A stretch of DNA of 64,000 nucleotides, from positions 21,020,563 to 21,084,562 of the forward strand of contig CP141145.1 of assembly GCA_035235625.1 (NCBI GenBank). The letters run 5' to 3'. The stretch's first letter is position 1, and the number at the start of each line of letters is the position of its first letter. The translations under genes were made by a program, and so were the position numbers. Shown here one piece after another: positions 22,987 to 57,731 of the stretch. The stretch comes from Saururus chinensis (Eukaryota > Streptophyta > Magnoliopsida > Piperales > Saururaceae). The notes under the pieces were generated by a model that saw only the letters and a list, made by a program, of their open reading frames with translations, was not told the origin of the DNA and ran no database searches.

Positions 22987-23744
22987 CAGTGTTTTAAAAC
23001 CTGGACCGGCCCGGCCGGTTCGACTTGCATCAATAGGACCCAATCAAAATTCCGGGCTGAGTCATCAGGGTTGCCGGGTGACATTGACCCAGGTAGGTCA
23101 ACTCGACCCTACCAGTTAAATTAGAAACCCGGACAATCGGGCCAGTCTATAGGTTTTAAAAAAAAAAACAAGAGAGAAAGGCGGAAAGGGGGAGGAATCG
23201 AGGGGATTGGGGTTGGTGATTGTGGTGTGCTGTGAGGGATATGGCTGGGGCCATCTGAAATCCGAAAAGCACCGCCTTTTAGCACTCACAATCACCAGAT
23301 CTCATAGTCGCCGGATCATCTTCCCGCCGACTATCATCGTGGTTGGGGCGCCGGCCGAAGGAAAAGCGGGGAGGAGAGTGAGGGAAGGTGGGGAGGAGGA
23401 GGGAAGGGAGATGCGGTGCCGGCCGAAGGAGAAGCTGGGAGGAGAGGGAGGGAAGGCGGATGGCGGAAGGCTGGCACACGAGGCCTGGGGAGGATATGGA
23501 GGGGAAGGTTGGTCATGGCTATGGCCGGCACACCGGGGAGGAGAGGGAGGGGAAGGAGGAATGTGGCTTGGAGTGGAGAGCCGCCGCACTGTGAAAGATG
23601 AAATTGATTTTAGTGTTAGGGTTAGAATGAATGGTATACTATTATATCAATATGGTTCAACCCGGGTTGACCCCTAGTTGAACCCGGTTGAACCAACCTG
23701 GACACCAATCCGGGTTAGTGTTTGGGCCGATTATTAAAACATTA
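22987..23744. mobile_element. Non-autonomous hAT-like element with perfect 8-bp TSD
   Basis: A 758-bp element. The left end CAGTGTTTTAAAACCTGG and the inverted right end TAATGTTTTAATAATCGG are imperfect inverted repeats, continued by GGCCGGTT/AACCCGG-rich subterminal DNA. It is flanked by GGTGAAAC at 22979-22986 and 23745-23752, a perfect 8-bp duplication, which points to hAT. The centre (about 23160-23600) is GC-rich and contains a tandem pair of about 68 bp starting GCCGGCCGAAGGA. Reading frames there (for example 23207-23677) are overlapping low-complexity products, not genes. Confidence 0.85.
23347..23480. repeat. Tandem pair in the centre of the hAT element
   Basis: Two copies of a unit of about 68 bp, starting near 23350 and 23417 with GCCGGCCGAAGGAGAAGC-like wording and running into GGGAGGAGAG. 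Confidence 0.65.
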
Positions 23745-24145
23745 GGTGAAACAACATAAGGCTAGGGGCGAGGCAGGGCTGGTGTTGGCCCTGCCTCCAA
23801 ATAAGGGGTGGGCATAGGGTAAAAAGATGTAAAAAATAATAATTCTTAGACGTATGTATTATATTTAGAGAAATTTTATTAAAAAATTAGTTGAGAATTG
23901 TCCGTGCACCCCCGTGCCCAGCTGCCATTGTGCCTTGACGTTTCTCAGCTGTTGGGTGCCAATCTATGGGCTGAGGGAGTAGATGTTTTTCTGCCCCCTA
24001 CTTCTTTGGTCATTGTCATGCGATCAAGATTCTATAGCCAATATGCCCCTCACATATATCAAAGAGACTTTTTTAATAAATTTAATTAAAATAAATAAGA
24101 AATAAGATAAAGAAGAGTGTATTGGGTTGCATATAGGAGCCCTCA

Positions 24146-24299
24146 TAGTTATAGATGCTATCGGATTCGGTTTTGTCAAACCTAAACACGATACTATTTA
24201 AAAAATGGTAAACTCAAATTTGGCCCAAATAGCTTTAGAAATCAAAATGCAACCCATTAAGGTTAGGTCGGGTTGAATTTTATCAAAATAAAAAAATAT
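24146..24299. repeat. Left half of a repeat split by the CACTA element
   Basis: A stretch with TCGGATTCGGTTTTGTCAAA and GATACTATTTAAAAAATGG resembles DNA on the other side of the CACTA element (29492-29669, which has GGTACTACTTAAGAAATAG). Terminal wording TAGTTATAG (left) and inverted TAGGGATAC (right) may be the ends of one small older element, but no duplication of target DNA was found. Confidence 0.4.
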
Positions 24300-24840
24300 C
24301 ACTACAACAAAATTGACTATTAGCTACGCTTTTAAGCGTCGCTAATAGTGCTATATGTGTCGCTAATAGTTATTAGCGACACATATAAAACGTTGCTATA
24401 TGCATCGATAAAAGTGTCGTCATTATTGCATATTAGCGACGTTTAAATCAAGCATCGCTAAAAGTATTATTAGCGACGTATAGTAAACGTCGCTATTAGT
24501 ATGGTATTAGCGACGATTATATTTAAGCGTCGCTAATAATATATTATTAACGACATTTATTAAGTGTCGCTAATAAAAAAAATATAATTTTTTAAAAAAT
24601 ATAATTTTTAAAAAAATATATTTTTTTAAAAAATAAATTAAATAAATAATTAGTAACAACGCTTATATAAGCGTCGCTGATGTATATAATATTTTAAAAA
24701 ATATAAAAAAATTTATTTATGAATTAAAAAATAATGTAAGACTATTAGCGACGCTTGATAAATGCGTCACTAATAGTATATAAATAAATAAAATAAATCT
24801 TTTAGCGACGCTCAATATGAACGTCGCTAAAAAAAATTAA
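24300..24840. repeat. Left subterminal palindrome array of the CACTA element
   Basis: Repeated units of AGCGACG(C/T) and its complement, each pair separated by a few to about 20 bases and set in AT-rich DNA. Pairs such as TTAGCGACGTATAGTAAACG with CGTCGCTATTAG can fold as short hairpins. Similar units recur at 25860-26160, 26700-26800, 27105-27220, 28050-28115 and 28900-29480. Confidence 0.85.
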
Positions 24841-25261
24841 ATAAAAAAAAAGCTACCAAACCCGATTAGTACTGACCCGGTTTGGAGCGAGAGATGGGAA
24901 AGACGTGCCAGATGGAGGGGAAAGACGCACGCTGGCCATCTCTGGTGGCAGCATTGCGTAAGAGGAGGGGAAAAAAGACGACGTGGCCGCACTAGCACCG
25001 GAAGACATGACGTGGCCGACGTAGCCGGGCCAGAGTTTGAGCAAGACTTGGCGGACTTTTTCTCACAAGACGGGACCAAGGCGGTGGGCAGAGGAGAAGG
25101 AGGCGAAGCCGTGTGTTTGCGCTGCTTGCATGAAGGCTCGAGGCGGGGGACAACAAGAGAGAGAGCAGCCGGTCTTGAGTCTCTTTTTCTCGCTGGGTAG
25201 GAAATGGCAGCGGGCGGAGGTAGGTAAAGCGGTAGCGGGCGTAGGTAGCCCACTCCCCGTC

Positions 25262-25610
25262 CCTCTTCCTCCCAAGGCACCTCTTGCCGGCCCCGATCCT
25301 CGCAGCCCCGGCATCTCTACTTTCGCCCGGACCACACCGCTCCTCACCCACACCGTCCGGGTAGCCAGCCGCTTCAACACCATGTGCTGCCGGGTTTAGA
25401 GGACCCCGGGCGACTCCGCTTACACGCCTTTGAACTCTGGATCCAACTTTAGCGACCGCCGACCTCCCACTGAGATGGCTCCGCTCTTCCCCGGCTGCGA
25501 CTAAGAGCACTGGCTCATAGTCATGGACAAGCCCGGCGGTGAAGGCGCCACAAAGCAGCAGATGATCGACTGCTACATCCAGATGCTCCGGTCCAGAGGA
25601 TAAAGCGAGG
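25262..25610 (+). pseudogene. Captured first-exon fragment of a MORF2-like gene
   Basis: The plus strand encodes TPLNSGSNFSD (from 25424), then PPTEMAPLFPGCD (25463-25501), then HWLIVMDKPGGEGATKQQ (25508-25561) and MIDCYIQ, all in one frame. This is the conserved N-terminal part of multiple organellar RNA editing factor 2 (MORF2/DAG-like), a plastid protein that binds PPR editing factors in C-to-U RNA editing. Upstream, RSPGISTFARTT and SRFNTMCCR look like the plastid transit peptide. The copy is dead: a stop precedes TPLNSG (TAG at 25397), a second replaces the Tyr after PGCD (TAA at 25502), and the match is lost after YIQ (about 25588), where the source gene would continue with an alanine- and glutamate-rich stretch. 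The remaining MORF domain is absent, consistent with capture of one exon. GC content is far above the surrounding element, as expected for transferred host coding DNA. Identification rests on memory of the family. Confidence 0.85.
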
Positions 25611-25730
25611 CGCAGCCGGTGGAAGCGGAGGAGGAGAGGAGAGAAGAACCTCATCGCAGGGACGAGCTCATGGTAGGGACGAAGCAAGGCGGAGCCGGTG
25701 GAAGTGGAGGAGGAGAGGAGGGAAGAAGCG
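25600..25730. repeat. 79-bp duplication beside the captured exon
   Basis: AGCCGGTGGAAG followed by GGAGGAGGAGAGGAG occurs from 25614 and again from 25693, with neighbouring similarity. The duplication adjoins the end of the MORF2-like match. Confidence 0.7.
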
Positions 25731-26159
25731 CGGCATATAAAGGCCCGGGCAAAAATTTGCCTGGGCACAAAACTGGGCGGAAAATCGCCCGGCCGAGAAA
25801 GGGAAAATCGCCCGGGCGCAAAGTTTCGTGCCTGGGCAAATTTCCGCCGCATGTTAAATGTTTAGCGATGCTCAGTAGAGTGTCGCAAAACATAATCATT
25901 TGCGACGCTCATTTACGCTCGTCACAAATAGAGTCACATTAGCGACAGAAGAATATTAGTGTCGCTAATATAAGCTATATTAGCGACGCTGCCTTCCAAC
26001 CGTCGCTAATGTCAAAAAAATTTAAAAAAAAAATTTATTCGCGACGCTCAGCTATGAGCGTCGCTAATATTATTCCTAAATAGCCATGCTTATAACTAAG
26101 TGTCGCCAATTATTAACTTATTTAGCGACGCTCAATTTAAAGCGTCGCTATTAATTTTT

Positions 26160-28800
26160 TTTACTTTTCTCTGCCTCTCTTTCCTCCTCTCTCTCCTCCC
26201 CTCTCTCTCTCTCCGTTCTCTCTCTACCCTCTCTTCTCTCTCTCCCTCTCTCTACCCTCTCTCCCTCCCCCTCTCTCTCACCTCTCTCTATCCCTCCCCT
26301 CTCTATCCCTCCTCTCTCTCTCTCTCTCCGTTCTCTCTCTCCCTCTCCTTTCTTTCCCTCTCTCCCCCTCTCCTTTCTTTCCCTCTCTCTCCACCCTCTC
26401 CTTTCTTTCCCTCTCTCTCCGCCCTCTCCTTTCTTTCCCTCTCTCTCCCCCTCTCCTCTCTTTCCCTCTCTCCTCTGTCTTTCCCCCTCTCTATCTCTCC
26501 TCTCTCCCCCCTCTCTCTCCCTCCCCTCTCTTTCCTCCCCCTCTCTCTCCCCCTCTCCTCTCTCTCCCTCTCCTCTTTTTCTCTCTCCCCTCCCCTCTCT
26601 TTCCCTCCCTCTCTCTTTCCCCTCTCTCCTCTAATTTCAATTTTTTATAATTTTTTTAAAAATTAATTTTGAAAATAAAAAAAATAACAAAAAGTAAATA
26701 CTAATAGCGACGTATACGTACATGTAATAGTGACGTATATCCCTATACGTCGCTACTACATGTACTAATCGCGACGTATATTCGTATACGTCGCTATTAG
26801 TATTTTATTTTAATTATTTTTTATTTTAAACAATAAAAAAAATTAATAATTTTTTTAAAAAATCAACAAAATAAAATCTCTCTCCTCTCTTTCTCTCTCC
26901 CCTCCCCTCTCTTTCCCCCTCCTCTCTCTCTCCCCCCTCTCCTCTCTCTCTCTCTCCTCCCTCCCTCTCTCCTTTCTCTCTCCCTCTCCTCTCTTTCCCT
27001 CCCTCTCTCTCTCTCCCCTCTCTCCTCTAATTTCAATTTTTTATAATTTTTTATTTTTAAAAATTAATTTTGAAAATAAAAAAATTTAAAAAAGTAAATA
27101 CTAATAGCGACATATATAATATACGTCGCTATTAGGACAGGTATTAGCGACATATATATTTATACGTCACTAATACACGTACTAATAGCGGCGTATATTT
27201 CTATACGTCGCTATTATTATTTTATTTTATTAATTTTTTTATTTTTTAAAAAATAAAAAAAATTAATAAAAAAATTTTAAAAAATCAAAATAAAATTCCT
27301 CTCACCCTCCCTTTGTTCCCTCTCCTATCCCCTCTCTCTTCCCTCCCCTATACTAATAGCGACGGGGCGGAAGGCGGCAGAGCGACAGGGCAGAGTGGTT
27401 GCGCGGTGACAGAGGCCGACGGGGCAGTACCTGCGGAGGGGGGAGGAGGGGCCGGAAGACGGAGGACGGTGGGCAAAGGCTGAGGGGGGCGAAGGCGACG
27501 CACCACAGTGCTGCGGAGGTGACGGCGCAGCAGTGCGGCGATGTGGCGGTGCGACAAGGGCTGCATGGCGGTGGGCAGCAGGAGACGGGCGAAGGGGGAA
27601 ATGCGAAGGACGAGGGTGGGGGGATTTTTATGGCGCGGGGAAATTTCGCCCGAGCGCAAAATTTCCCCGCGTAGGTATTTTTTTGGTTTTTTTTTTAAAA
27701 AATTAATTATTAGAGACAGTCACTAGGACCGTATGTCGCTAAATATATACTTTTAGCGACGTTTACTCAAATCCGTCGCTAAAACAAATTTCTCTCTCTT
27801 CCCCCCCTCTCTCTGCCCTCTCTCTCTCTAACCTCTCTCTCTAACCCCTCTCTCTCCTCTCTCTCTCTACCCCCTCTCTCTAACCTCTCTCTCTCCTCTC
27901 TCTCTCTAACCCCTCTTTCTCCACCCTTTCTCTCTCCTATCCCTCTCTCTTCCCTCCTCCCTCTCTCTCCTCTAATTTCAAAATTTTTTGAGATTTTTTT
28001 TATTTTTTAAAATTAATTTTAAAAATAAAAAAAATTTAATTTAAAATACTAATAGCGATACGTCGCTAATACGTGTACTAATAGCGACGTATACAAATAT
28101 GCGCCACTATTAGTATTTTAAATTAAATTAATTTTTTATATAAAAAATAAAAAAATTTAAACAATAAAATAAAATAAAATCCCTCTCTCTCTTCCCTCTC
28201 CCCTCTCCCTCTCTCTTCCCCCTCTATCTAACCTCTCTCTCTAACCCCTCTCTCTCTGCCCTCTCTCTCCTCTCTCTCTCTTCTCCCTCTCTCTAACCTC
28301 TCTCTCTCTCTGCCTTCTCTCTCCTCTCTCTCTCTAATCCCTCTCTCTAACCTCTCTCTCTACCCTCTCTCTCTCCTCTCTCTCTCCACCCTTTCTCTCT
28401 CCTCTCTCTCCTAACCCCTCTCTCTCCTCTCTCTCTCTAACCCCTCCTCTCTCCACCCTTTCTCTCTCCTATCCCTCTCTCTTCCCTCCCCCCTCTCCCT
28501 CTCTCTTCCCTGTCCTCTCCTCTCCTCTCTCTCTCTCTCCTATCCTCTCCTCTCTCTCTCTCTCCTATCCTCTCACTCCCTCTCTCTTTCCTATCTTCTC
28601 CTCTCCTCTTTCTCTCTCTCTTCCCTCCCCTCTCTCTCTTCCCTCCCCCTCTCCCTTCTCTCTCTCTCTCTCCCTCTCTCTTCCCTTTCTTCTCTCTCTT
28701 CCCTATCCTCTCTCTCTCCACCCTTTCTCTCTCCTCTCTCTCTCTCCACCCTCTCCCTCTCTCTCTCTCCACCCTCTCCCTCTCTCTTCCCTCTCCTATC
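26160..28800. repeat. Repeated polypyrimidine modules inside the CACTA element
   Basis: CT-rich tracts (26160-26635, 26880-27028, 27790-27975, 28175-28800) alternate with a module that begins near CTCTAATTTCAATTTTT, continues with AATTAATTTTGAAAATA and carries a pair AATAGCGACGTATA / TATACGTCGCTATTAG. The module start is seen near 26630, 27025, 27968 and 28815. The frames at 26100-26666 and 28437-28772 only translate the CT/GA repeat. Confidence 0.85.
27350..27690. other. Second GC-rich block in the CACTA element
   Basis: GC-rich DNA of unknown origin with overlapping frames on both strands and no recognised domain. It ends in a near-palindrome, GGGGAAATTTCGCCCGAGCG and AAAATTTCCCCGCG (27635-27672), which resembles wording in the first GC-rich block (25745-25850). 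Possibly a second captured fragment or an element-specific promoter region. Confidence 0.5.
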
Positions 28801-29491
28801 TACCTACACACTATCTTTCCTCTAATTTTAAATTTTTAATATTTTTTTATTTTTAAAAATTAATTTTAAAAATAGAAAATAATTAAAGAAAAATACTAAT
28901 AGTGGCGTATAACTATATATGTCGCTATTAGTATTTTATTTTATTTTTTTATTTTTAAAAATAAAAAATAATAAAATTTTAAAAAAATTAAATAAAAATA
29001 GGTAGTAGCGACGCATATGACTATGCGTCGCTACTACGATGTGGTAGTAGCAACATATAGGATATGCGTCGCTATTAGTTCTTATTTTTTATTTTTTTAA
29101 AAAAATTAAGAATTATTAGCGACGCTCATATTTAAATGTCGCTATTGTTGAAACTATTAGCGATGTTTGTATGTATACGTCGTTAATAATGTTGAAATTT
29201 ATTTAAAAAAATTTAAATATATATCTATTAGCGACGCTTATAAAAGCGTTGCTAATAATGTAAGTATTAGCAATGCATAAATTCAAGCGTCGTTAAAATA
29301 TTACGTATTAGTGACGCTTAATATTGCGTGTCGCTAATAGACTATTATTAGCGACGCTTAATATTATACGTCGCTAATAGTTGTATTTTTTGCGACGGTT
29401 TGTTATATGTCATTATTAGCATATAGTAGTGACGCATAGTATTGCGACGCTTACATAAGTGTCGCTAATACCCAGTTTTGTTGTAGTGTAT

Positions 29492-29669
29492 ATTTATAAC
29501 CTTATTCGGGTCAGGTTTATCAAACTTCAACTTGGTACTACTTAAGAAATAGTAAATCTGAATCCAACCTAAATAACTATTCTAACTTGAATTCAAAAAC
29601 CTAAACATGACCAATTAGGGTTACGTGGGGTCATATTTTACTATCTACCGGACCCGAATTGTATCCCTA
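29492..29669. repeat. Right half of the repeat split by the CACTA element
   Basis: Continues the repeat noted at 24146-24299. It holds a second diverged copy of the internal unit (about 29508-29572) and may end at TAGGGATAC read inverted (29669). Confidence 0.4.
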
Positions 29670-29689
29670 CTCACAGTAAAAAAGTCATA

Positions 29690-30440
29690 AAAATGGAAAT
29701 GGCATTCGCCTTCGTTTTGAATCTGCCCACCTCGTCCGAACTTTCCCATTGCCAGTATCCAAAAAGGCGTCAACGATTGGTCATGGCAATTATCTAAGCC
29801 TCAACAGTTGATTTATTCAATGAACAAATGAAAAAACGAATAAACCAATCAAGCAAAGCTGAAGCTGAAGGAGACATGACGCTCCACAAGCTTCCGTCCA
29901 CAAGGAGCCAGAGGGCCACTGCAAGCCTCTACTTTCTTTAAGATCCTCCATGCCCCGTCCGCCCATATTGGCATGTTAGGCAGGGATTGAGGTGGACTCC
30001 TCACTGGGTCCTACCCAAGTGGTTTTCCAATTCACATGCCTCGTGGGTCCTCTAACCACACATGACAGACATAAGCCTTAGCTTAGCTAGCTGAGGGCAG
30101 ATTTCCTGGAGGAAGAGTGTGGAAGAGCTGCAGGTGGGAGGGGGCCCTCCACTGTGAAGTACCAATTACTGCGAATGAGAGAAGCAAAGGGAAGAGGGCA
30201 GCCCCACCTTAAATAATGCACAGCTGCATGACAGCCAGCAGCCTGGAAGCTCTTTATATGCATCTGATCAGTTTCTCTGCCTCTGGTTTTGCATGAAGTG
30301 ATGAGAGAGGAAGGGGGATGAGGAAAGGAAAGAGATGTGTCTGGGATGGCTGGGGCGGCGTAACCACTAGGAAAGCGACCCTACGCACACATTCACAAAA
30401 ATGGCCTCCGTTCTCTTTGTCCTAATTCTGGCACACCTGC
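29690..30440. other. GC-richer unique DNA with promoter-like features
   Basis: Less AT-rich than its surroundings and without transposon marks. A TATA-like CTTTATATGC lies at 30252-30261, with CT-rich leader-like DNA and several ATGs after it. The longest short frame (MRKGKRCVWDGWGG, from about 30320) has no family I recognise. It could be the promoter and first exon of a host gene or a non-coding transcript. I checked by eye for common plant microRNA sequences and saw none. Confidence 0.35.
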
Positions 30441-33490: not shown

Positions 33491-33991
33491 TAATTTAATA
33501 TTAAGATATAAGTGTGTTATTATTTGCAGAGTAAGTAATAGAGAATTCAAAGGCTTCATCTTATGGTTTTTAACACATCAAGAAAAAGGCAACCTATTAT
33601 TTTCATCAGGTAACACAGGAGCATTACTATCATCATCCAGAGAAGAAGAGTATGTTGCAGTGAAGCAGCTTTGTCAAGCTCTTTCAAGTAGTGATTAGGT
33701 GGACAATGTTCCCTGCTAAGTTCTAAAGCACATGATCCAACGCCACAAAGGAGACTACTATTTCAAGTCTCAGAGATATATTCTATGAGGATGTCACTAA
33801 GAGAATTGCGTTAGGTGATTGACTTCACGGTAGCTGATATGATACCCTCTATTCCTATTGTGCCCCCCACACTCGATAGGCACACTCTAATGTACACGGT
33901 GCTCGGGGAGGGAAACAAGAAAATCACCAAGGAGGATGAGGTTGCCATTAAGCTAGCCCTAGTCCTCATTTTTTAAAGTCTAATAATTGGT

Positions 33992-34235
33992 GGGGGGGGG
34001 GGCTAGGAACATGTAGTAGACACGAGGTTTAAATCTTAGTTGATGACTAGGATGCATTCAATAACTATCCCTGGGGTAGCATTGGCTATTAGGCTACATT
34101 GCACATAGGGGGGGGGGGGGGGGGGGGGGGCTAGGAACATGTAGTAAACACGAGGTTTAAATCTTAGTTGATGACTAGGATGCATTCAATAACTATCCCT
34201 GGGGTAGCATTGGCTATTAGGCTACATTGCACATA
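33992..34235. repeat. Poly-G-linked 105-bp tandem duplication
   Basis: A run of 11 G (33992-34002) precedes copy 1 (34003-34107), and a run of 23 G (34108-34130) precedes copy 2 (34131-34235). The copies differ at one base in 105, so the duplication is very recent or an assembly artefact linked to the homopolymer. Confidence 0.9.
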
Positions 34236-42988: not shown

Positions 42989-43370
42989 CACTACAACAAA
43001 ATGTACATTTAGCAACGCAAAAATAAACGTTGCTAAAAACTAATAATAACAACATATAAAAGAGTGTGGCAAAAAAATTCACTATTAGTGACGCTTAATA
43101 ATAAACGTTGCTAGTAGTCATATATTAGCGACGCATAATATTAAGTGTTACTAATAGTGAAACTATTAGCGATGCATTATAATATATGTCACTAATACAA
43201 AACCTATTAGCGATGCTTTATATTATGCGTCACTATAAGTTATGTTATTAATTTTTTAAAAAAAACTCAAAACTATTAGCGACACTTTTTCTTTAGCAAC
43301 GCTAATAGTTTTAACAATAGCGACATATGTTAACATGGGTCGCTAATAATTTTCAAGTTAAAATTTAGAG
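42989..43370 (+). mobile_element. Truncated left end of a second CACTA element
   Basis: CACTACAACAAAATG at 42989 is followed by AGCAACG/CGTTGCT and AGCGACG/CGTCGCT-type repeats to about 43355, matching the subterminal style of the element at 24300. No right end is found downstream. Its palindromes carry more mutations than those at 24300-29488, so it is older. Confidence 0.8.
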
Positions 43371-44319: not shown

Positions 44320-44808
44320 CACATGCTTAAAACTGCGGCGCCCCGCCACCATTTCTAGTGGTGCTGCTATTTTTTGTGGTGGCACCCACCATTTAGGTGC
44401 CCCGCATGCGGGGCGTGATGCCCGTGCATCGCCTTCACATGTACCACATGCAGCTCAATTTTCTTTTTTAAATCTTATCTTCAAATGCACGTATCTTTCT
44501 ACCCCATACTAGGATTCACGTGTTCTTGGTACCATTGAATTTATATTGGCAAGCCCTTCAATACTAAATCACGTAGAGCAGTTTATCCTACTCTTCTCAA
44601 ATAAGTACTGCCAATATTGCATGCTTCTCGAGGTCATAATTTTTGCTTCCAACCTCTATTTCACATGTTCTTAGATTTGTTCGCTCGTTTCTTCAAGCTC
44701 TAATCATATACAAAGGTTTCAACTTTTGACCCTTTAAGAATTATCCAAAAATTATCTAATTACACCTAACCCCTGGATTAGACGTAATAAAAAAAAGTGG
44801 GGTGTTAT
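44320..44808 (-). mobile_element. Gypsy-like LTR fragment, minus strand
   Basis: On the minus strand, from TATAACACCCCAC (44808) downward, the block resembles the U3 side of Tekay-type LTRs, including GGTACCA (44548-44554 region) and GGGCTTGCC wording that parallels the LTR piece at 57732-58266. It abuts the Copia pol fragment at 44811, so it probably landed in that element. Its inner border is lost among the repeats below 44300. Confidence 0.45.
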
Positions 44809-44810
44809 AG

Positions 44811-45690
44811 TGGATGACAACCTCTTTAGATCTACAAATGATAAGTTTACCAAAGATTTTACAAAAGAGATGAGTGAGGAATTTAAAATGAGTATGGAAT
44901 GTTTACTAGCTTATTTTCTTGGTTTGCAACTAGAACAAACTGAATTGAGAATTTTCATCTCACAATCCAAGCTTGTTAAAGATTTTGGGAAGAAATTTGG
45001 ACTTCAAAATGCAAAATATGCTAAGACACCTATGTCTCCTTCTATCAAGTTAAGTAAAGATGCTTTAGGTAAATCCGTTGAACAAATTTTATATTGAAGC
45101 ATGATTGGTAGTCTTTTATACTTATATGCTAGTCGCTTAGATACTTTCTTAACTGTAGGAGTATATGCTAGGTATCAAGTTGATCCTAAAGAATCTCACA
45201 TGATTGTTGTTAAGATCATAATAAAATATACGAGTGGAGATATAAGATATGGTTTATGGTTTCCGTTTTACATTACTTTTGAACTAGTACGATATTTAGA
45301 TGCTTATTGGGTAAGGAATGTAAATGACTGAAAAAGTACCTTAAGAGGATGTTTTTATGTAGAAAATTACTTAGTTTCTTAGCATAGTAAAAAGAAAATT
45401 AGTGTTTCCTTATCAAAAGCTAAATCTTAATATATAGCTCCTAGTAATGGATGAAAATGATGTTATTTGATTATGGAATACGTCAAGGAAAAATGACTTT
45501 ATATTGTGATAATCTAAATTCGATTAAAAATTCTCAAAGTCCTTTTTAACATTCTCAAACAAAACATATTGATGTTAGACATTATTTTATTTTAGTTTCG
45601 GTTGATGATCAAATTGTCAACTTAGAACATAGTTCAACAGAGTTTTAATTGACTGATATTTTTACTAAACCTTTGGATTTCAACAGGTTC
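44811..45690 (+). mobile_element. Copia pol fragment (end of RT, RNase H)
   Basis: Plus-strand remnant of a Ty1/Copia polyprotein. It begins exactly at the VDD catalytic box of reverse transcriptase (44811), continues through the RT-RNase H connection (YFLGLQ, QSKLVKDF, TPMSPSIKL) and RNase H, with the family-typical QTKHIDVRHYF and DIFTKPLDF near the end (about 45560-45690). The N-terminal two-thirds of pol and gag are missing, and it is cut on both sides by other LTR sequence. Broken and old, with several interruptions. SIRE/Tork-like lineage is likely but not proven. Confidence 0.9.
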
Positions 45691-51029: not shown

Positions 51030-52389
51030 CTGAGTTATAACAATTTAAAGTTTTGGAAAAAGAAAAATATATATATTATATTTAAGTCGGCTAACTTATG
51101 CATTGCGTCAGCTGTCACTAACGCGCTACAGCGCAATGGGCTCGTGACCCACAGTGCGGGATCACACAGCCCAGGTACGCTGTGCAGTGCATAGGACCGT
51201 GTGGCTCGCGGCGCAGGTCACATGACGGTTCCGCGTCGCAGGCACACGGGACCTGCGTGTTGGGTCCCGCAGCACCACACAGAACTGCTTGATGACACCG
51301 CACGACACTTGGCGGACAAGTGTCGTGCGGTCCATCAATTCTATAAATTCACTTTGTTTTTTTTACTATTTTCATTTCGCCATGTGTTAAAAACTTCTGA
51401 CCCTCCGTTCTAAGTCGTTTTAAGTCCGGATCAACCCGTTCAAAAAGTATTTCTAACTAAATCGATGGTGTCGGACGCTGTGATGGGGCCAATTTTTTCA
51501 TACAAGCTCTATACAACCACGAGCTTTCTACCCCAACTCTAAGGTAGTGCGTCTTAAACTCTAAGTCTATGTTATGCACTTATGCTTGACATTTTATGCA
51601 TTAATTTTAATTAGTCATGCATAATTGCTTATGTAATCTGAAGTAATTCTATATGTATTCCATGTCTTATTTATTCAAAATTATTATATAATATGTGTAT
51701 TTCTATATAATTATAGGATTATACCTAGAATTATACTTTATCTAGTTACCTACCGAGGAAATTATCGATATCTGGCGCGCATATAAATATAAAGTGTCAT
51801 GAGAAAACTCCTACTTTCTGAGCTTCCTGTTGCCCTATGAGCATAGAAGGAATGTCGTTCAGTATCACGACTTTGGATTTATCGTCATCGGATAAACCGG
51901 TATTTTTTTTTAAATTATTTCTGAATCCGTTTATGTAGTAAGCTCTGTTTTAGAAAAATTACAATCTTTTACTTAGCATTAAATTAGATTTTAATTCCAC
52001 TTACTGAGTATACAAATACTTACCCACCTCCAGACTCTACAGGTAGTAAAATAAATCCAAAGGTGTCAGCTGAAGAGTTTTCTGCTTAGTTTGTGAATGC
52101 TTTGTAAAAACACTGTAATATTCATGTAAAGGATTATTAGGCCTATATTTTAATCTAACTGTTTTACACATGGTGTATTGTGGACTCGGTCCTGATTTGC
52201 TATTATGTTATATGTAATATTTTGGTTGTGTGTTAACTCCAATATCTTATAAGTACTTATGTTTTATGTGTATTTTTTAGATGCGTACGGTCAGCCATCA
52301 CGTTCGGTTTCACGTGTGATGTAACATGTGCCGAGCAGGATAATAAATATGTGTATTATGACATATAATATTTAATGACGGTCACCACA
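51030..52389 (+). mobile_element. 5' LTR of Tekay-type Gypsy element (incomplete)
   Basis: Homology to the 3' LTR (56869-57731) begins near 51036 (AACAATTTAAAGTTTT) and runs to about 51607. The remainder, to the LTR end ACCACA at 52389, has no partner because the 3' LTR is incomplete. A degenerate primer-binding-like stretch with AGTATCGAAGCTTTCAA follows at 52392-52408. The GC-rich section 51120-51330 includes a near-palindrome (CGCACGACACTTG / CAAGTGTCGTGCG, 51300-51330). Frames inside are not genes. Confidence 0.8.
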
Positions 52390-55300
52390 CTTAGTATCGA
52401 AGCTTTCAACTCCACTGTTAGTAGAGCAATTTTTTTAGATATATAATACCGTAATATGTATATTTGATGCTTTCTGATGTTATGATATGTTTGGTTTTGA
52501 CATAGTAATGGGAAAATCGAAAATAAACCTTATTTCGGGATCTTTATATCATACGTCAACCCGAAAACCACCACCACCAAGAAAAGACAAAAAGAGTCAT
52601 GGTATGGCAGAGTCTTCAAACAATTCAGATATTACCATTGCCCTTTCCCAAAATAGCGATGATGTCCAGGAAATAGTCAATATCCCTGACATGCCTCTCT
52701 CGATAGAAGTCGAGGAAATAATAAACATTTCTGACATAACTATAGAAATAGATGAAGAGGAAGACCCTTTGGAAGAGGAGGAACCATTGGAAGAGGACCT
52801 GGTGGAGGAGGAACCGTTGGAGGCAGATCCAATGGATGATGAGTAGTATTTCTCTCCTCATGTTCAAGAGAAGAAAGAGAAAGAATTTTTGGATCTTCAA
52901 CAAGGTAATATGACAGTTTTTCAATATGAAAATAAATTTGTCTAGTTACAACGCTTCACTCTGGAAATCTACTCCACTGAGTTAAAGAGAGCCCAAAAAT
53001 TCATTAGAGGGTTGAATAATTGGCTTCATAGTCGAATAGTAGGATTTCAATTTGCTACTTTTGCTAAAGTTGTGGAATTGGCTTCACTGCTAGAGCAAGA
53101 ATATCAAGAATTCTTAGCAAGGAAAAAGGATCATGGACAAGGTAGCAGGATGGAAGATCGAAAAAGAAAAATGACAGCCCCTAACCAGTTCAATAATCAA
53201 AAATTTTAAAGAACCTCGGGACCATTGCCCCAAAATCAAAGAGAGAGGAAGTTAGAGAAGTGCTCCAAATGCAATCGATTTCATCTATCAGGGATCTGTT
53301 ATCTCTTCAAGAGATAATGCTTTGCATGTGGAGACCCTGGACACAAAATCAAGGAATGCCCCAAAAAGAAGATCAAGGAAGAAATCAAGCTGGACTAGAA
53401 ACCAAAAGCTCAGGGCCGAGTGTATGCTATTACTGCAAAAGAAGCTCAAACTTCAACAGGAGTTATATAAGGTATACTTCTAATTTTGGATAAAGTTGCT
53501 AAAGTTTTAATAGATCTAGGATCAACGCATTCTTTTATATCCAGTGATTTTACTTTAAGTACAAATTATCTAGTTATGGAACTAGGATATATCATAGAAG
53601 TGTCAACTCATGTCGGAAAAACTTTTATAGCTCAAAACTTTCTGCAAGATGTGTCCATGTCCTTAGAAAACCAAAAATGGAAGGCTAACTTGATTCTCTT
53701 AAGTATGACCGACTACGATGTCATATTAGGAATGTATTGGTTAGCTAACAATGAAGCATTAGTAGACTATAAGAAGAAGAAAGTCATATTCAATAAATAA
53801 GGAGAGAAAAAATTTGCCTTTCATGGAAACAGAGACCCTTTAGGAGCATGTATCATTTCTGCTATGAAGGCACAGCAATTGATATCTAAAGGATGTCAAG
53901 CATATATTGCTAGTATAATTTTGGAGGAATCATCATATCCCAAGATAGAAGATATTGAAGTTATAAGGGATTTCCCAAATATATTTCCTGACGATCTTCC
54001 TGGGGTACCACCGAAGAGAGAGATAGATTTTAATATTAATTTAGTACCAGATACATAACCTATCTCTAAGGCACCCTATAGAATGGCTTCTATAGAACTA
54101 AAAGAATTAAAGAATCAATTACAGAAATTATTAAATAAAAGATTCATTAGACCGAGTGTCGCACCTTGGGGAGCTCCAGTCCTTTTTGTCAAGAAAAATG
54201 ATGGATCTTTAAGACTATGCATAGACTATAGGATGCTTAACTAGGTAACTATCAAAAATAAGTATCTGTTACCCCGGATTAATGGTTTGTTTGATCAATT
54301 ACAAGAAGCAAAAGTATTCTAAAAAATTGATCTAAAATCTAGATATCACCAATTGAGAATACGGGATGAAGACATTCCAAAAACAACATTTCGTACCGAT
54401 ATGGACACTATGAATTTTTAGTGATGCCATTCGGATTGACGAATGCTCCTGCAGCATTCATGGATCTTATGAACTGAGTTTTTTGACCTTATTTGGATAA
54501 ATTTGTGATTATTTTTGTTAATGACATATTAGTCTATTCTTCCATTCCTGAAGAATATCAAACACACTTACAAATAGTCCTTTAAACCCTAAGAGACCAT
54601 CAGCTATATGCTAAGTTAAGTAAGTGTAAGTTTTGGTTGGATAAGGTTATTTTCTTGGGTCATGTCATTTCGAAAAATGGAATATTAATAGACCCTACCA
54701 AGATCGAAGTAGTTTTGAAGTGGGAAAGACCCAAAACCATCATAGAAATTAGAAGTTTCTTAGGACTTGCTAGTTATTATCGAATGTTTATCCATGGGTT
54801 TTCAAGAATAGCTTTGCCTTTAACAAAGATAACTAGAAAAGGAGTGAAATATTTATGGAATGAAGAATGTGAGAAAGTATTTCAGGAGTTGAAACAAAAA
54901 CTAACCACCGCTCTAGTCTTATCCTTACCAACTAGTAGTGGAGGGTTTGCAATTTATAGTGATGCCTGAAGAATGGGTCTTGGATGTGTTTTGATGCAGA
55001 ATGAGAAAGTAATAGCCCATACTTCAAGACAATTAAAGAAGCATGAAGGTAATTACCCCATCCATGATCTTGAGCTGGCAGCGGTAGTTTTTGCCTTAAA
55101 ACTTTGGAGACATTATTTATATGGAGAGAAATTTGAAGTTTTTACAAATCATCATAGTTTGAAGTATATTTTCTCTCAAAGGGATTTAAATTTAAGGCAA
55201 AGATGGTAGATTGAATATCTAAATAATTATGACTTATCTATTCAATATCACTAAGGGAAAGCCAATGTAGTGGTCAATGCCTTGAGTAGGAAGGCCACAA

Positions 55301-56868
55301 GGATGATAGCTCAAATGTTAATAAAAGAATGGAGATTAATATAAGAGATAATAGACATACAACCTCAGTTACAATCAAGAAACAAAAAGGCAGTCGTAGC
55401 TATTCTTGAAATACAATATGAACTGATTGAGCACATTTTGAAGGCACAAAAAGAGGATGCAGAAATACAAACCTTCTTAGACAAGCCTGAATTTAATAGA
55501 AGTTCTAATGATGGAATAAGATTTAAAGAACAGTTGGTAGTCCCTGCAGTACCTGAACTAAAACAAGAATTGTTGCATGAAGCTCATAGGTCTCGATACA
55601 CTATACACCCAAGAGGAACAAAAATGTACCAAGACCTAAAAAGAAGTTTTTGGTGGAAAGGGATGAAAAGGGACATAGGAAAATTTATCTTTAATGTCTA
55701 ACCTATCAGAAGTTAAAGCAGAATGTCAGAAACCATCAGGTACTCTTCAACCTATTAAAATTCTAAAATGGAAATGGGAGTACATTTCTATGGATTTTGT
55801 CTCAGGCTTACCCAGGCATCAGCAAGTCATGAATCTATTTGGGTTATAGTAGATAGACTTACTAAAAGTGCTCATTTTCTTCCTTTAAAGAAGTCTCAGA
55901 CGTTGAATGTTTTGGCCAGAATGTATATAAAGGAAATTGTGAGTAGGCATGGAGTACCATTATCGGTCATTTCAGATCAAGACAGTCGGTTCACTTCGCA
56001 TTTTTGGCAAGACTCCAAGAAGAATTAGGTACTAATCTAAGATTTAGTACATCATTTCATCCACAAACTAATGCTCAGTCTGAACGAACTATTCAGACAT
56101 TAGAAGATATGTTGTGGGCATGTGCCATACATTAGAAAGGTAATTGGGATGAGTACTTGCCATTAGTTGAATTTTTTTATAATAATAGTTATCATTCCAG
56201 TATAGGTATGACACCTTATGAGGCTCCTTATGGACGACCTTGTCGATCTCCAACTTGATAGAATGAGGTTGGGGAAAGAAAATTAGTAAAGTCAGAACTC
56301 ATACAACAATACGTGGATAAGATAAAACTTATACCAAGTCGATTGGAGATACCTAGAGTCGTCAAAAGAGCTATGCCAATCAACGAAGGAAAGACCTCGA
56401 CTTCTGCATAGGTGATCATGTATTGCCAAAGGTATCACCAACTTGAGGAGTTATGAGATTTGGTATCAAAGGAAAACTAAGTCCTCAATTTGCAGGACCA
56501 TTTGAAATTCTAGATAAAATAGGACAGTGGCTTACAGATTAGCATTGCCCCCTCAGCTGGACAGGGTCCATAATGTGTTTCATGTGTCAATGCTTCACAA
56601 ATATGTACAAGATCCTTCTCATGTCTTAGATTAGACAATGGTCCCCTAGAACATGATTTGACATTGAAAGAAAAATCGGTCAGAATATTGGATCAAAAGG
56701 AACAAATTTTGAGGACAAAAGGGATTTCATTACTCAAAGTACTATGGCAACATCATTCTTTAGAGGAAGCCACGTGGGAATTAGAAAGTGATATGTTAAA
56801 GAAATATCTAGAACTATTTAACGAATAGCAAAATCAATTTCGATGACAAAATTTCTTTGAGGGAAGAT
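52390..56868 (+). mobile_element. Internal region of Tekay-type Gypsy element (broken)
   Basis: Plus-strand parts in order: gag with an acidic insert (52480-53200), zinc-knuckle region (about 53250-53390), aspartic protease (53486-53800, VLIDLGSTHSF), RT (54000-54700, with GHVISKNGI and [13 protein letters not shown]), RNase H (54900-55300), zinc-binding and integrase core (55430-56250, [25 protein letters not shown]) and a C-terminal chromodomain (56670-56828, RILDQKEQILR, VLWQHH, EEATWELE). Domain order and wording match the Tekay (Del) chromovirus clade. A purine-rich tract (TTTGAGGGAAGAT) precedes the 3' LTR. Broken in many places and old. As a family these elements replicate through an RNA intermediate and insert in heterochromatin. 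Confidence 0.92.
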
Positions 56869-57178
56869 TGTGACAACCAAAATTTTTTGTACATTTTTAA
56901 TATTGAAATTTTAATATATTAATAGAGTATTATTTTGAATATTGTACCTAAAGTGTTATTGTAGAACTCTAAAAAACAAACATAACGGTTTTTGAATATT
57001 TTAAATCGGATGTGGGAGCTGTATGTATAGATTGTGGGAGGCGTGCATCATAAGTGGACGTACGGTGAAACTCATCCTTGAGTGGCCTTGTTTCAAAGGG
57101 CTCATCAATACGAGTCCATCGGTACCAAGAACGTATTATTCCGATTTATAGTTAAAAAGTTATAACGATTTAAAGTTT

Positions 57179-57260
<82 letters not shown>

Positions 57261-57731
57261 TTAAGTTGGCTGATGTATGCATTGTGTCAGCCATTGCTGA
57301 CGCACAATGACACGATGTCCCACATTCCACGGTGTAGGATCACACTGTGCGGGTACCACGCCTGCACAACACGCAGGGGCCGCGAGTCGGGTCCCGCGAC
57401 ACCTTGCAGGTTTCGCGCGCTATGCATGATTCCGCATGGCAGACACGCATCGCGCGTCACGCGGTCCATTAGTTCTATAAATTCACTTCATTTTTTTTAT
57501 TGTCATCATTCCACCACGTGTTAAATTCACTTCTAACCCTTCGTTTTGAGTCATTTTAAGTCCAAATCAACGCATTCAAAAAACATTTCTAACTAAATCG
57601 ACGGTCCCGAATGCTGTGACAGGGCCATTTTTTCCTACAAGCTCTCTACAACTACGAGCTTTCTACCCCAACTCTACAGTAGATGGTCTTAAACTCTAAG
57701 TCTATGCCATGCACGTACGCTTGACATTTTA
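56869..57731 (+). mobile_element. Incomplete 3' LTR of Tekay-type element
   Basis: It starts TGTGACAACC right after the polypurine tract. It matches the 5' LTR through the GC-rich middle and the TCTATAAATTCACTT segment (about 57470) up to GCTTGACATTTTA, then similarity stops abruptly at 57731, where an inverted LTR piece begins. About 790 bp present at the end of the 5' LTR have no counterpart here. Confidence 0.85.
57183..57256. repeat. (TA)n microsatellite in the 3' LTR
   Basis: Over 70 bp of alternating TA. The corresponding site in the 5' LTR (about 51067-51080) has only a few TA units, so the array grew after insertion or differs by assembly. Confidence 0.95.

Follow-up and report, generated by a model that had tools for sequence, protein, structure and literature searches.

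The question raised by this locus is whether the stretch 24300-29488, in a window of 64,000 nucleotides of Saururus chinensis DNA (contig CP141145.1 of assembly GCA_035235625.1, positions 21,020,563 to 21,084,562 of the forward strand), is a transposon that has captured a piece of a host gene. The window is the whole stretch that was analysed, and positions are counted from its first base. An initial annotation, made from the letters of the DNA, had read this stretch as a Pack-CACTA element containing part of the gene for the plastid RNA-editing factor MORF2, and had added that the captured part could yield small RNAs against its parent gene. In our opinion it is very probable that the element is a non-autonomous Pack-CACTA which contains a decayed passenger fragment of the host MORF2 and which a transposase from elsewhere mobilised as a whole. 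Articles are cited here by their PMC identifiers. The features on which the identification of the element depends are the following.

24297 to 24299: target-site duplication TAT, left copy
24300 to 29488: CACTA-type non-autonomous element of 5,189 bp, defined by 13-bp perfect inverted ends and the 3-bp duplication
24300 to 24312, forward strand: left terminal inverted repeat, CACTACAACAAAA, from comparison of the ends
29476 to 29488, reverse strand: right terminal inverted repeat, from comparison of the ends
29489 to 29491: target-site duplication TAT, right copy

Comparison of both termini showed that the first 13 bases are all identical (13/13), as are 22 of the first 25, and CACTACAAC was found at 24300 on the forward strand and at 29480-29488 on the reverse one. 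When one mismatch at most was allowed, this 9-mer gave 14 matches in the window. Since 18 of 100 shuffled sequences also reached 14, the 9-mer alone carries no signal; the signal is the pairing of both ends. The window was searched for CACTA...TAGTG pairs located 0.5-20 kb apart and having identical 13-bp ends. Two pairs were obtained, and a 3-bp duplication was present only at 24300-29488, the second pair (28105-28904) being situated within the element and without such a duplication. Among 200 dinucleotide shuffles of the window, any end pair appeared in two and a pair accompanied by a duplication in none (0/200), and a chance origin of the ends was consequently rejected. A 3-bp target-site duplication is the rule in the CACTA (En/Spm) superfamily. 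The element shows it (TAT/TAT), together with terminal inverted repeats starting with CACTA, and these data bear out the initial annotation as regards the matching ends and the duplication. One passage on the CACTA elements of rice and maize gives a target duplication of 5 nt (PMC8903248); the 5-bp flanks of the element, AATAT and TATAT, agree in 4 of 5 bases.

The cargo was studied at the protein level, and two parts were distinguished in it.

25262 to 25414, forward strand: possible transit-peptide coding part of the MORF2 fragment, with a stop at 25397, assigned by position and translation only
25415 to 25588, forward strand: MORF2-like coding fragment SAYTPLNSG...CYIQML, in frame 25202+3n, with an in-frame stop at 25502

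The peptide used as query, in which an X was placed at the in-frame stop, matched the Pfam profile MORF_dom with an E value of 1.1e-07 and 32.1 bits (cut-off 27), from query residue 31 and over profile positions 2-30 of 93. It also matched MORF2 in PDB entry 5ydg, which we take to be the Arabidopsis protein, from residue 25 (E value 2.4e-18, 68.3 bits), with 32 of 34 residues identical; the two mismatches are at the stop and at a Met in place of Thr. MORF9 in PDB entry 5gi0 gave 28.1 bits (E value 1.3e-05) and was rejected as donor in view of the 68.3 bits obtained for MORF2. The FPGCD residues are encoded at 25487-25501 and the similarity to MORF2 ends at 25588. The upstream part, 25415-25486, is in frame with the matched one and is putatively MORF2-like, and the wording SAYTPLNSGSNFSD is typical of MORF2. 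A significant MORF/DAG match was thus obtained, as the initial annotation had proposed.

Nevertheless, the MORF frame contains stops at 25397, 25502 and 25601, and for this reason the MORF2 piece must be considered a broken fragment. With three stops and 29 of the 93 profile positions (2-30) matched, it has neither the open frame nor the whole MORF domain of a functional MORF2. The observation of a MORF2-like piece is confirmed, with this correction to the initial annotation. Presumably, the fragment has no present function, since it cannot encode a MORF2 N-terminus. The G+C content at its third codon positions was 0.75 (57 codons, including the stop), which fits a plant with G+C-rich genes; the G+C content of the window per kb ranged from 0.24 to 0.58 and was mostly below 0.43.

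Other parts of the gene were sought in the window. By blastn, no other MORF2 piece was found there, the one further row being of 13 bases with an E value of 0.74, and tblastn of the window for the rest of MORF2 gave no match beyond three rows with E values from 1.7 to 8.8. Both searches led to the rejection of an intact MORF2 gene within the window, and the fragment does not lie there beside the rest of such a gene. In addition, a similarity search of 24862-25860 among plasmids gave no match. A MORF2-peptide pattern had 4 matches in viral contigs and 72 in genome contigs, none of which was confirmed by tblastn, and the CACTA-end pattern had 0 matches in viral contigs.

These results bear on another possible origin, in which a MORF2 mRNA was reverse-transcribed and landed as a processed pseudogene in an already existing CACTA element. 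The fragment indeed has no visible intron, although this says little because it may fall inside one exon. What reverse transcription usually retains is the 3' end, whereas what is present here is the 5' part, with no MORF2 3' part in the window after the point where similarity is lost, and we regard this origin as very unlikely indeed. As for the exon positions of MORF2, none are given in the available parts of PMC11138011 or PMC8027827. It could also be considered that transcripts incorporate the fragment by splicing, as a chimeric exon, for which the gene fragments of soybean Tgm-Express1 constitute a precedent (PMC1947982). The initial annotation had proposed an exon boundary near 25588, for which no support was obtained; the first GT from 25580 onward is at 25591 and could serve as a splice site, though chance would supply one too. 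Against this, the MORF frame carries stops, and the scan of 11 of the 29 frames of at least 90 amino acids lying outside the element revealed no host gene, so that such an exon is scarcely to be credited. The stretch following 25588 is purine-rich and includes 46 bases that are nearly duplicated (25603-25648 and 25682-25727, 42/46 identical).

The element was also analysed for transposase coding and for the organization of its repeats. It is overlapped by 43 stop-to-stop frames with a length of 50 amino acids or above, and 29 of them were scanned with Pfam, 19 (9 + 10) at E values up to 1 and 10 at E values up to 0.01. No transposase domain was detected in these 29 of 43 frames, the sole Pfam row within the element reaching 12 bits (E value 0.14), under the cut-off of 24. 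As in Pack-TYPE (Pack-CACTA) elements, host coding DNA is thus found inside, by its match to MORF2 and on the assumption that it came from this host, and transposase coding is absent within the frames scanned. The repeats and the blocks between them are arranged as follows.

24313 to 24860: left subterminal array of AGCGACG/CGTCGCT palindromes, with 10 motif copies in 24300-24860
24862 to 25735: G+C-rich block without the array motif (0 copies in 24861-25855), defined by composition, which holds the captured fragment
25856 to 26165: internal array of the AGCGACG/CGTCGCT motif, right of the captured block, with 5 copies
26166 to 28850: interior, in repeated modules where tracts rich in pyrimidines alternate with A+T-rich palindromes
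27350 to 27680: second G+C-rich block, defined by composition, a possible second cargo
28851 to 29475: right subterminal array, with 7 motif copies in 28851-29488

The palindromic motif TATTAGCGACG...CGTCGCTAATA forms arrays at both ends of the element, and 32 of the 33 copies of the 7-mer AGCGACG/CGTCGCT in the window lie inside it. In the interior these copies are unevenly distributed: 0 in 26166-26690, 5 in 26691-27300, 1 in 27301-27700, 4 in 27701-28180 and 0 in 28181-28850. The subterminal repeats are in direct and inverted order, as is described for CACTA elements (PMC8978399). The block at 27350-27680, in which no Pfam match was found among the reading frames scanned, is possibly another captured fragment. 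Both G+C-rich blocks have a short motif in common near their right edges (score 34, maximum of 200 shuffles 33) and a weak mutual similarity (score 38, maximum of 200 shuffles 36). In the opposite orientation the scores were 23 and 22, reached by 16/200 and 101/200 shuffles, with shuffles scoring up to 35. There is only a hint here that a common right-hand module may belong to the element itself and not to its cargo.

All these data agree with a Pack-CACTA origin, and a mechanism can be proposed for it from what is known of the family. The ends and the subterminal arrays would be recognised in trans by a CACTA transposase encoded elsewhere, which would thereby mobilise the entire element, and the move to the present site would have left the TAT duplication. 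The MORF2 part of the host would have been captured earlier, when two adjacent CACTA copies became joined with host DNA between them. This joining is suggested because motif arrays flank the captured block on both sides, and a capture model in which tandem elements are joined around host DNA has been described for Pack-CACTA (PMC13317346). Several points weigh against this account. The transposase scan left outside 14 of the 43 frames, situated at 26100-26666, 26875-27030 and 28232-28856 and mostly pyrimidine-rich, as well as all frames shorter than 50 amino acids. The array at 25856-26165 aligned to the left end with scores of +63 and -76 and to the right end with +69 and -61 (plus and minus denoting orientation), and because the arrays are palindromic and both orientations score about equally, these values do not point to either end as its source. 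Moreover, that the capture took place from this host's own MORF2 gene is what we infer, and packFinder removes elements present as singletons, since these may be false positives (PMC8903248). On the whole, the first reading of the locus is partly supported: its core, namely a non-autonomous CACTA element containing part of MORF2, is sustained by the ends, the duplication, the arrays, the MORF2 matches and the scanned frames.

The part of that reading concerning small RNAs fared differently. If the element were transcribed, small RNAs from the MORF2 fragment could silence or tune the parent MORF2 in trans, and the conserved part of the fragment is still close to MORF2. There are precedents, since in rice the host gene OsDRM2 is repressed by the miR820 genes that CACTA elements carry (PMC3459959), and fragments captured by maize Helitrons, Pack-MULEs and Sireviruses are described as reservoirs of small interfering RNAs (siRNAs) acting on the donor genes (PMC13317346). 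However, the blastn search of the window revealed no copy antisense to the fragment, and the fold of the fragment was ordinary (z -1.00, with 16/100 shuffles folding equally well). A strong hairpin was indeed obtained at 24431-24577 (RNA fold z -8.88, 0/200 shuffles as good), but this stretch belongs to the left array and not to the cargo. Neither did any Rfam match overlap 25415-25588. A search of 24000-29800 at E values up to 1 gave 33 Rfam matches, 31 in array and palindrome stretches and 2 at 25735-25838; all 33 were under the gathering score, and known microRNA families were rejected on these grounds. A hairpin or antisense source within the window was thus not found for the fragment, and hairpin small RNAs against MORF2 are not favoured because there is no antisense copy and the fold is ordinary. 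The siRNAs generated via RNA-dependent RNA polymerase need neither a hairpin nor an antisense copy. An action of the fragment on its parent gene through small RNAs is, therefore, possible but unsupported, and we hold the transcribed, regulatory element to be very unlikely. It is extremely improbable that, in this host, the family of the element supplies small RNAs from its MORF2 fragment which help to control the editing of plastid RNA and retrograde signalling; if true, a plastid editing factor would be tuned by a transposon.

The surroundings of the element in the window were also annotated. An unpaired CACTA relic at 42989-43360 starts with CACTACAACAAAA at 42989 and includes, at 43127, the only AGCGACG/CGTCGCT copy outside the element. 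Its part 43044-43359 can be aligned with the right subterminal array of the element (324 columns, 71.6%), and no TAGTG end was found for it to its right in the window with up to 3 mismatches of 13. The flanks of the element, 24172-24282 and 29516-29640, have a direct-repeat similarity with a score of 39 (shuffle mean 20.7, reached by 1/500 shuffles), and since they resemble each other the element may be flanked by two copies of an older repeat. Directly to its left, an open frame of 174 amino acids (23153-23677) had no Pfam match. Retrotransposon remains, which we take to be of the Ty3/gypsy type, extend over 51327-57731, with aspartyl protease, RNase H (slightly under cut-off) and integrase zinc-binding matches at 53471-55701. 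They are bracketed by a direct pair, 51327-51596 and 57461-57731, which is 83% identical and may correspond to long terminal repeats. A reverse transcriptase fragment at 44738-45097 (Pfam RVT_2, E value 1e-09) is presumably of the Ty1/copia type. Two tandem pairs were identified, at 1209-1655 (units of about 225 bases, 93% identical) and at 33989-34235 (units of 119 bases, 98% identical), and the tRNA scan of the window gave 0 results.

Gene capture by CACTA elements is already well described (PMC8903248, PMC8978399, PMC1947982). In the literature searched, which most subscription journals lie outside, we found no report of MORF2 inside a CACTA element among the papers listed and no occurrence of the peptide words of the fragment; nor did any of the papers listed in connection with small RNAs deal with Pack-CACTA. 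The locus would be a clean case of CACTA gene capture with an identifiable donor gene, and the element could help to date such an event and to put the tandem-element capture model to the test. Work cited in PMC8027827 describes the rice MORF2, WSP1, as essential to the development of the chloroplast and links MORF2 with GUN1 and retrograde signalling, but a greater importance would correspond to the element only if its fragment yielded small RNAs that touch MORF2.

Among the known systems, the CACTA elements of Chenopodium that have captured fragments of AP2 are similar in having, in their 5' part, a short piece of a host exon and, in some of them, satellite arrays, and they differ in that the TAD domain is kept there whereas none was found here in the scanned frames (PMC8978399). 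The rice miR820 CACTA (PMC3459959) also carries sequence matching a host gene; nevertheless, it contains a defined microRNA with shown target regulation and the element described here a sense fragment only. Soybean Tgm-Express1 (PMC1947982) is likewise a CACTA element with host gene fragments and is close to this one in length (5.7 kb), but there five fragments lie inside an F3H intron and are spliced as exons, while here one fragment and no surrounding gene were recognised in the frames scanned. Finally, the Pack-CACTA elements of Arabidopsis, rice and maize (PMC8903248) share with this one a host coding fragment and the lack of a detected transposase, as well as the CACTACAA ends given for Arabidopsis, and the element differs from them in its MORF2 cargo and in its long and pyrimidine-rich interior.

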